Source: Trichlorobacter thiogenes
Lineage (GTDB): Bacteria; Desulfobacterota; Desulfuromonadia; Geobacterales; Pseudopelobacteraceae
Assembly: GCF_900167465.1 (NCBI RefSeq)
Contig: NZ_FUWR01000022.1
Span: 1-44,021, forward strand
DNA: 44,021 nucleotides
Direction: 5' to 3'
Shown here piece by piece: positions 10,614 through 12,854 of this stretch. Every line of letters starts with the position of its first letter. Positions within the stretch are counted from its first letter, which is position 1. Made by a program: the position numbers and the translations under genes. Under the pieces are notes generated by a model. The model was not told where the DNA came from. It ran no database searches and saw only the letters and a list, made by a program, of their open reading frames with translations.

Positions 10614-10643
10614 TTGACAAATCCATCCCCAAGGTTCAATAAT
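10614..10643 (+). promoter_or_regulatory. Candidate sigma-70 promoter for nadB
   Basis: TTGACA (10614-10619, perfect) with an 18-bp spacer to AATAAT (10638-10643, 5 of 6). The expected transcript begins near 10650, about 35 bases before the nadB ATG. It lies in the divergent gap with ribF. Confidence 0.6.
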
Positions 10644-10684
10644 TGCAAATTCATCTGTATACACTATCATCACGGGAGCATCCC

Positions 10685-12289
10685 ATGATCATTGAAAGTG
10701 ATTTTCTTGTTATCGGCAGTGGTATTGCCGGTCTTTCCTTTGCGCTTCAGGCTGCTGCACACGGCACTGTTTCAGTTGTTACCAAACGAGAAATAGCTGA
10801 ATCAGCCACCCGTTATGCTCAGGGAGGGATTGCCTCGGTCTTTTCCAGCGAAGACTCTTTTGACGCCCACGTCGAAGATACATTAGTTGCCGGTGCAGGC
10901 ATCTGCCATGAAGATGTCGTACGAATGGTGGTTGAAGAAGGCCCCCAAACCATAAGGAACCTGATTGAATGGGGAGTTAAATTCACCACCACCACCAAAG
11001 GCGATGAATACGACCTGACCCGAGAAGGTGGTCATAGTGCCCGCCGTATTTTGCATGCTGAAGACATAACCGGACGTGAAATCGAACGGGCTCTGGTGGA
11101 AGCAGTCAGACAAAACCCTAACATTCAGGTCTTTGAAGATCATATAGCCATTGATCTGCTCACCTGCGCGAAACTGGCCAGACAGCCGGTCAGTGACAAC
11201 TGCTGCCTGGGTGCCTACGTACTCGATATTAACAACAAGTGCGTCAAGACCTTTTCAGCCGGTGCAACCCTGCTTGCCAGCGGTGGCGCCGGCAAGGTAT
11301 ACCTCTACACCTGCAACCCCGATGTCGCATCAGGCGACGGAGTTGCCATGGCCTATCGAGCCGGTGCTACCGTTACCAACATGGAATTTATGCAGTTCCA
11401 CCCCACCACCCTCTTCCACCCTAATGCAAAATCCTTTTTAATATCTGAAGCAGTTCGGGGGGAAGGTGCAATCTTAAGACGCCGTGACGGTACCGCCTTT
11501 ATGGAAAAATACCATCACCTGAAAGATCTTGCCCCCCGTGATATTGTTGCTCGCGCCATTGACAATGAAATGAAGACCTATGGCGACGACTGCGTTTATC
11601 TGGATATCACCCACGAACCAGCTGATGTAGTCAGAAACAGGTTCCCCAATATTTATCAGACCTGCATGGAATATGGACTGGATATGACCAAAGACTGGCT
11701 ACCGGTTGTTCCTGCAGCCCACTACCTCTGTGGCGGCGTACAGGTAAACACCCACGGTCAAACAGACCTGCGTGGACTGTACGCCATTGGTGAAGTTGCC
11801 TTTACCGGTTTGCACGGTGGCAATCGGCTTGCCAGCAACTCATTGCTGGAAGCAGCGGTATACGCAAGCAATGCTGCAAAACATGCCATTGATGCCTTAA
11901 CCACAAAACCTGCTACAAAACCTGCCACTCTCCCCGAATGGGATTCAGGCACGGCCACCAACAGTGACGAAATGGTTGTAGTCTCTCAAAACTGGGATGA
12001 GATCAGACGCTTTATGTGGAACTATGTTGGCATTGTACGCTCCACCAAGCGCCTTGAACGAGCCATGCGTCGAATTAAACTTATTCAGGCAGAAATTGAA
12101 GAGTACTATTGGAACTTCATTATTACCTCTGACCTAATTGAACTTCGTAACCTGGCCAACGTAGCAGAACTGATCATTGGTTGTGCCCAACAACGCAAGG
12201 AATCCCGCGGGCTGCACTACACCATCGATTACCCGGAACGAGATGATGTTAACGGCAGAAAAGATACGAAACTAAAAAAACAATTTTAG
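10685..12289 (+). CDS. nadB: L-aspartate oxidase
   Basis: A flavoprotein that oxidises L-aspartate to iminoaspartate, the first step of NAD synthesis; anaerobes use fumarate as electron acceptor. The FAD dinucleotide fold is at the N-terminus (VIGSGIAGLSFAL). Family motifs are YAQGGIASVF, GGHSARRILHAEDITGREI, MEFMQFHPT and the flavin-contacting GGVQVNTHGQTDLRGLYAIGE (positions about 11,730-11,795). The ATG at 10685 was chosen for the GGGAG upstream and because it places the flavin motif at the usual distance from the start (534 residues). It heads a three-gene unit with chorismate mutase and a small ACT-like protein. Confidence 0.97.
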   Translation: MIIESDFLVIGSGIAGLSFALQAAAHGTVSVVTKREIAESATRYAQGGIASVFSSEDSFDAHVEDTLVAGAGICHEDVVRMVVEEGPQTIRNLIEWGVKFTTTTKGDEYDLTREGGHSARRILHAEDITGREIERALVEAVRQNPNIQVFEDHIAIDLLTCAKLARQPVSDNCCLGAYVLDINNKCVKTFSAGATLLASGGAGKVYLYTCNPDVASGDGVAMAYRAGATVTNMEFMQFHPTTLFHPNAKSFLISEAVRGEGAILRRRDGTAFMEKYHHLKDLAPRDIVARAIDNEMKTYGDDCVYLDITHEPADVVRNRFPNIYQTCMEYGLDMTKDWLPVVPAAHYLCGGVQVNTHGQTDLRGLYAIGEVAFTGLHGGNRLASNSLLEAAVYASNAAKHAIDALTTKPATKPATLPEWDSGTATNSDEMVVVSQNWDEIRRFMWNYVGIVRSTKRLERAMRRIKLIQAEIEEYYWNFIITSDLIELRNLANVAELIIGCAQQRKESRGLHYTIDYPERDDVNGRKDTKLKKQF

Positions 12290-12299
12290 TGAGGCATCA

Positions 12300-12587
12300 G
12301 TGGATATCAATGAAATAAGACTGCGCATAGACCTGCTAGATGATGTCTTACTCAGAATTTTTAACGAACGTGCCCGCTTAGCCCTGGAAATCGGGCACCA
12401 TAAAAAGCTGCTTGATCTCCCGGTTTACGACCCCTCACGTGAAAAACGGATTTTTGCACGGATGAAGGATGACAATCCAGGCCCTTTAGATGACGGGGCA
12501 ATTATACGTCTGTTTGAACGGGTAATTGATGAATCTAGAAGACTTGAAAGGATCATGACGCAACAGGAGGAGCAGGAAGAATGCTAA
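12300..12587 (+). CDS. Monofunctional chorismate mutase, AroQ type
   Basis: Converts chorismate to prephenate for phenylalanine and tyrosine synthesis. The 95-residue all-helical AroQ fold is recognisable: the N-terminal helix IRLRIDLLDDVLLRIFNERA carries the first arginines, then IGHHKK supplies the lysine, YDPSREKRIF the Arg-Glu pair, and IDESRRLE ends the last helix, where E. coli has the active-site Gln region. The start is a GTG 10 bases after the nadB stop, preceded by GAGG. No prephenate dehydratase or dehydrogenase domain is fused. Its end overlaps the start of the following small gene by 7 bp, so the two are translationally coupled. Confidence 0.9.
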   Translation: MDINEIRLRIDLLDDVLLRIFNERARLALEIGHHKKLLDLPVYDPSREKRIFARMKDDNPGPLDDGAIIRLFERVIDESRRLERIMTQQEEQEEC

Positions 12588-12790
12588 TTATTACAAAGAA
12601 AAAAGCCTCAGAAGAAGCTTTAGACCAGATCAAGGAGTATCTGGTAAATAATGGTTTTGACTTCCACCAATCAACCGGTGCGGATCGCACTATTATTGGT
12701 GTAATTGGTGATACACACACACTTGAAGAGAAAGTTATTCTAAATATGTCTGGGGTACATCAAGTTATGCGCATAAAACCAGATGAATAA
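12581..12790 (+). CDS. Stand-alone DAHP-synthase-type ferredoxin-like (ACT-like) regulatory domain
   Basis: A 69-residue protein resembling the N-terminal ferredoxin-like domain of AroF/TM0343-type DAHP synthases, which mediates feedback inhibition by Tyr or Phe. The pattern is a leading beta strand LIITKK, a helix, then TGADRTIIGVIGD and GVHQVMRIKP, the strand that normally leads into the catalytic barrel. It stops two residues later; the downstream DNA is AT-rich and ends in a terminator, with no catalytic domain in any frame. It overlaps the chorismate mutase gene and has AGGAAG before its ATG, so it is probably translated. It may be a free regulatory subunit or the remnant of a deleted aroF. 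The family call rests on remembered patterns. Confidence 0.65.
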   Translation: MLIITKKKASEEALDQIKEYLVNNGFDFHQSTGADRTIIGVIGDTHTLEEKVILNMSGVHQVMRIKPDE

Positions 12791-12812: not shown

Positions 12813-12854
12813 AAACAACTACGCCACCCATAGATATGAGTGGCGTAGTTGTTT
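12813..12854. terminator. Bidirectional terminator between the nadB unit and pilQ
   Basis: A perfect 15-bp inverted repeat: 12813-12827 pairs with 12840-12854 around a 12-base loop. It lies between two convergent genes. In the pilQ direction the stem is followed by an AT-rich tail with TTTTT, fitting an intrinsic terminator. In the nadB direction the tail is weaker (TTGTTTG). Confidence 0.75.

Follow-up and report, generated by a model that had tools for sequence, protein, structure and literature searches.

What does the regulatory domain of a DAHP synthase do when it is encoded on its own, without the catalytic barrel, and its gene overlaps that of a chorismate mutase (CM)? The question is raised by an open reading frame with an ATG start at positions 12581-12790 on the plus strand of the window, by which we mean the whole analyzed stretch of 44,021 nucleotides from Trichlorobacter thiogenes (contig NZ_FUWR01000022.1). 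The 69-residue product, MLIITKKKASEEALDQIKEYLVNNGFDFHQSTGADRTIIGVIGDTHTLEEKVILNMSGVHQVMRIKPDE, matches the DAHP synthase ferredoxin-like (FXD) family PF18152 (DAHP_snth_FXD) with 72.9 bits against a Pfam cut-off of 27 (E 1.8e-20). Because the match spans profile positions 1-66 of 67, the frame stops where the barrel would be expected to start. The Pfam search of the frame returned no barrel family, PF00793 being absent, and apart from PF18152 just a sub-cut-off match to DUF5633. With no catalytic barrel attached, the short FXD is not itself a type I-beta DAHP synthase.

The predicted structure of the short FXD (pLDDT 86.8) gave eight matches in the PDB at E <=0.001, all of them to the T. maritima DAHP synthase or the chimera 4GRS, and the top three had Z values of 10.7-11.6. 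When a sequence profile was compared with the PDB, the T. maritima entries and 4GRS again stood out, and three other entries had E >=0.2. The model also matches ACT-like domains outside DAHP synthase with Z about 8, including the small subunits of acetohydroxyacid synthase, but we regard these matches as weak because the FXD fold is common. The short FXD therefore resembles the N-domain of the T. maritima enzyme (1RZM, 3PG9, 1VR6; chimera 4GRS) in PF18152 family, fold and length, but in T. maritima the FXD is fused to the barrel that it regulates, whereas here it is a separate protein encoded beside a CM.

The short FXD gene is the last in a row with the order nadB-CM-FXD. The first gene, nadB, encodes L-aspartate oxidase (10643-12289, plus strand; NF006567, 799 bits, cut-off 629). 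The TTG listed as its start probably lies too far upstream, and the true start may be an ATG 14 codons in, near position 10685, which opens the flavoprotein motif. After a gap of 10 bases follows the gene of a monofunctional AroQ-type CM of 95 amino acids with a GTG start (12300-12587, plus strand), identified by alignment and by a Pfam match to CM_2 (PF01817) at 75.6 bits, with a cut-off of 27. The ATG of the FXD gene lies inside the CM gene, the two frames overlapping by 7 bases, and 10 bases ahead of it the CM gene carries AGGAGG (12565-12570, plus strand), which probably serves the FXD gene as ribosome-binding site. The first-pass annotation had described a 69-residue, barrel-less DAHP synthase domain overlapping a CM gene, and both the family match and the 7-base overlap bear this out. 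Nothing seen in the row encodes a DAHP synthase. Between the FXD gene and a converging gene, which from its sequence we take to be pilQ, lies a near-perfect hairpin of 19 pairs (12813-12854, minus strand); it may act in a terminator-like manner on the minus strand, on the pilQ side, and may mark the end of the nadB row as well. A promoter scan found 4 candidates against 3.5 expected from shuffled sequences.

We propose that the short FXD is a trans-acting, probably tyrosine-sensing regulatory subunit of the CM encoded beside it, and we consider this reading slightly better than an even bet (a probability of about 0.55). From the domain identity and the gene overlap described above, and from the obligate pairing, the conservation and the pathway make-up established below, we infer a complex, a ligand and a direction of effect. 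The CM and FXD genes would be translationally coupled and their products would form a complex. An aromatic amino acid, in all likelihood tyrosine, would be bound at the interface of an FXD dimer, as it is in the T. maritima DAHP synthase, and the ligand-bound FXD would change the activity of the CM. In this manner the tyrosine branch would gain a CM with its own feedback, apart from the phenylalanine-controlled CM of PheA. Two FXD-type domains meeting to form tyrosine sites have been described in the available part of an earlier paper (PMC5493349).

The core of this proposal is a rediscovery, since Aklujkar et al. 2009, in the available text of their paper, already proposed an FXD protein that regulates CM in tyrosine synthesis (PMC2700814). 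The authors described the CM and FXD pair in two Geobacter genomes (GSU1828/GSU1829 and Gmet_1955/Gmet_1956), and from their description we infer that it is orthologous to the T. thiogenes pair; the accessible text covers these two genomes and contains no experiment. In the literature that was searched, largely without subscription papers, no test of the 2009 idea was found, and the locus tags appeared in PMC2700814 only. Literature searches on the Pfam name and on stand-alone ACT domains with CM found nothing.

How regularly do the two genes occur together? Within the genus, family and order of T. thiogenes the short form is present in 53 of 57 genomes, T. thiogenes included (E <=1.2e-17), and the full-length DAHP synthase domains among the matches listed in that search have 24-34% identity to the short FXD. 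At all 53 loci the short form has 69-71 amino acids and a CM gene directly upstream, the CM of one locus (L025) being cut at the contig end. In the class Desulfuromonadia as a whole 252 of 277 genomes, and 179 of the 187 good ones, have the short form at E <=1e-15, whereas the best full-length DAHP synthase of the phylum search came only to 1.2e-13. The short form is missing from 25 class genomes; twenty of these, several of them incomplete assemblies, were checked with a CM query. The paired CM was absent in 18, of which 13 held only long PheA-like frames of 359-417 amino acids and 5 gave no match; in the other two the CM lies 60 bases or less from a contig end and the FXD side is missing.

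In a sample of the phylum the short form was found in 26 of 395 genomes (E <=3.6e-25), and the identical 26 genomes hold the paired CM (E <=9.5e-41), while seven weaker CM matches are frames of 363-388 amino acids. The two genes are adjacent and on one strand in 26/26. A single family from outside the class, here called f34, accounts for nine of these genomes, and the co-occurrence counts are not independent events but reflect about two lineages. An all-species scan, of which the best 80 of 182 related loci were used, was seeded by HQSTG-type patterns, and for that reason its motif count is not independent evidence. Taken together, the short forms from the phylum sample and from the all-species scan have a CM directly upstream in 102/102 cases (the CM of L102 is cut); this set overlaps with the 53 loci above, some loci repeat a genome, and L025 and L102 are one contig. 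Homologues of 69-71 amino acids next to aroQ in other genomes, which the first-pass annotation had named as a check, were found at these loci, a constancy of length among relatives far in excess of chance.

It appears that nadB is not part of the conserved unit. No nadB match was found upstream at 27 of the 102 short-form loci, where L102 and one other locus are cut short, a third has 1,085 bases, and some genomes were reached twice. We therefore regard the CM-FXD pair as the conserved unit, and a coupling to nadB as the essential link was rejected. The CM and FXD genes overlap at 23 of the 53 loci (one CM being cut) and at 24 of 79 loci in another set, and at two loci the surrounding genes, read by eye, are unrelated to the aromatic pathway. 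One contig titled as an Actinomycetota MAG bears a CM-FXD pair close to those of bins labelled 'Deltaproteobacteria' and is probably misassigned. Viral contigs yielded 45 candidate stretches but no relative, and plasmids gave 8 weak matches at <60% identity, 3 of them under annotated aroF genes and 5 with no listed gene.

The substitution pattern, also suggested as a check, points to purifying selection. Of the 55 pairs formed by 11 sequences of the same genus, 19 had a finite dS, and for these dN/dS was 0.041-0.334, well below 1; the remaining pairs were dS-saturated. These values bear on the question whether the short FXD is a non-functional remnant of a lost aroF that survived by chance, as the first-pass annotation had allowed. 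What speaks for such a remnant is its resemblance to a cut-off domain and nothing more. The short form itself is conserved through nearly all of the class at a fixed length and with low dN/dS, and no barrel was found at any short-form locus examined, so we give this explanation practically no weight. The functional coupling to CM put forward in the same annotation has fared better, being supported by the obligate co-occurrence, the adjacency, the fixed length and the purifying selection.

A motif of five residues, HQSTG (residues 29-33; codons at 12665-12679, plus strand), is invariant in 53/53 sequences in the alignment of short forms and at 18/18 further loci found with a profile. Likewise K18, D27, Q30, T32 and T45 are each kept in at least 98% of 115 distinct short forms. 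H29, S31, G33 and R36 are common to the short form and the T. maritima domain, which reads HISKG where the short form reads HQSTG. We take HISKG to be part of the tyrosine site of the T. maritima enzyme, in which H29 and S31 are said to contact tyrosine according to work by Cross and co-workers in 2011 and 2013. The motif is also what weighs against the short FXD being a structural or activating partner of CM without any amino-acid ligand. Such a partner would account for the obligate pairing, which requires a complex but not a ligand, but it leaves an invariant HQSTG at the position of the presumed tyrosine site, and we consider it improbable.

The full-length I-beta DAHP synthases have a different record at these positions. 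In the order of T. thiogenes S31 is kept in 0 of 18 of their FXDs (two from the T. thiogenes genome and 16 of 17 hand-picked relatives, one being dropped as its start is cut off), nine having A, E or R at position 29 with I at position 31 and nine having H with I. Elsewhere in the class S31 is kept in 0/8. Outside the class H and S are kept in 4/4, in f34 genomes with the pair in 9/10 and in f34 genomes without it in 6/6, and the full-length FXDs of other families keep S31 in 16/16 and H29 in 15/16; the f34 and other-family sequences were hand-picked from the stronger hits of a profile that contains HQSTG, and their counts therefore lean towards H and S. Within the class the full signature thus sits on the free-standing FXD, and in f34 both proteins have it. 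Both I-beta DAHP synthase types of the T. thiogenes lineage lack Ser31, and one type also lacks His29. For this reason the effector or the sensitivity of these enzymes may differ from those of T. maritima, as judged from these residues. The idea that DAHP synthase simply handed its sensor over to CM can be upheld only in part and not everywhere, because the full-length f34 enzymes that coexist with the pair mostly keep H29 and S31.

In a tree based on 69 columns and subject to a long-branch warning, a branch with support of 98/95 separates the short forms from both DAHP synthase paralogues. The 2009 tree, cited as data not shown in the available text, ties the short FXD to one DAHP synthase paralogue (PMC2700814), a grouping that our tree did not reproduce.

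Which enzymes could the short FXD act upon in T. thiogenes? A PF00793 search of the genome returned four proteins, namely one I-alpha DAHP synthase, two I-beta DAHP synthases and one KdsA-like protein, the last of which we presume to be KdsA. Both I-beta enzymes carry their own FXD in cis. With CM_2 two proteins only were found, the paired CM and PheA. The domains of PheA are CM-PDT-ACT, and TyrA, encoded directly behind it, consists of PDH_N-PDH_C without ACT and without CM, so no tyrosine-sensing domain is recognised on TyrA.

It is conceivable that the short FXD regulates, in trans, a DAHP synthase from another locus by docking on the barrel in the way a fused FXD does, and that the FXD gene merely happens to lie beside CM. 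The known partner of an FXD is a DAHP synthase barrel, the genome offers the three enzymes just mentioned, and an extra sensor could restore control over the I-beta enzymes of the class, whose FXDs examined lack Ser31. Still we consider this unlikely, as both I-beta enzymes are already provided with an FXD, the short form is found beside CM at every locus examined with no DAHP synthase gene seen in the row, and the short form is missing from many genomes of the phylum in which a full-length frame with an FXD is present. The co-occurrence in the same 26 genomes, the adjacency, the invariant HQSTG, the low dN/dS and the make-up of PheA and TyrA are the reasons why we favor a trans-acting subunit of the paired CM.

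In the CM itself R7, R24, K35, R47, E48 and E83 are invariant across 14 aligned rows of paired CMs, and these six residues, matched by eye, may correspond to catalytic residues of the E. coli CM. The general AroQ signature is retained, and judged by eye no weakened active site was noticed. The paired CMs also share a loop NPGPL at residues 59-63 (window 12474-12488), invariant in 14/14 rows and reading NTGPL in one of 12 rows of another alignment; the loop could be part of the contact with the FXD. When the CM and the FXD were co-folded as one read-through chain, they did not dock and the joint was disordered (mean pLDDT 69.0, pTM 0.43); as a single chain with 12 similar rows and without a control, this model carries little weight in either direction.

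In a third arrangement CM and FXD would bind jointly to a DAHP synthase, and either the CM would be boosted or the DAHP synthase inhibited. There is precedent for its parts, as according to the available texts the regulatory modules known to occur in fusion with I-beta DAHP synthases are two, CM and FXD (PMC6362186), and a non-covalent control between CM and DAHP synthase exists in M. tuberculosis (PMC5526877). These systems resemble the T. thiogenes pair in that a CM is coupled to a regulatory part of the DAHP synthase type, but they include the barrel, whereas the T. thiogenes CM pairs, at the gene level, with an FXD alone. Since no gene linkage to a DAHP synthase was seen and the CM shows by eye no sign of a weakened active site, we find the three-way arrangement unlikely.

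For a separate subunit acting on the paired CM itself, a parallel in organization is provided by IlvN and IlvH, the small separate ACT-like regulatory subunits of acetohydroxyacid synthase. The short FXD is like them in being a separate gene beside the enzyme gene and, with the Z value of about 8 given above, in its fold, but family and enzyme are different and the fold likeness is at a common level.

Our analysis extends the 2009 proposal by showing that the pairing is obligate and how widely it occurs, by identifying the invariant motif and by sharpening the proposed mechanism. Tentatively, and judging from sequence comparison, we may go further and picture AroQ and the barrel-less FXD as a tyrosine-latched CM, which would be where feedback acts on the tyrosine branch in Geobacter and the rest of the class, control having perhaps shifted from the first step of the pathway to the branch point as the I-beta enzymes lost Ser31. 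If the proposed role of the short FXD is true, the pair would be a case in nature of a sensor domain that parted from its own enzyme and was put to use on another one in the pathway, a natural counterpart of chimera 4GRS, which we take to be an engineered transfer of the FXD domain. It would also explain a separate feedback on tyrosine synthesis in Geobacter and its relatives, and would annotate a protein that almost every member of a bacterial class has.
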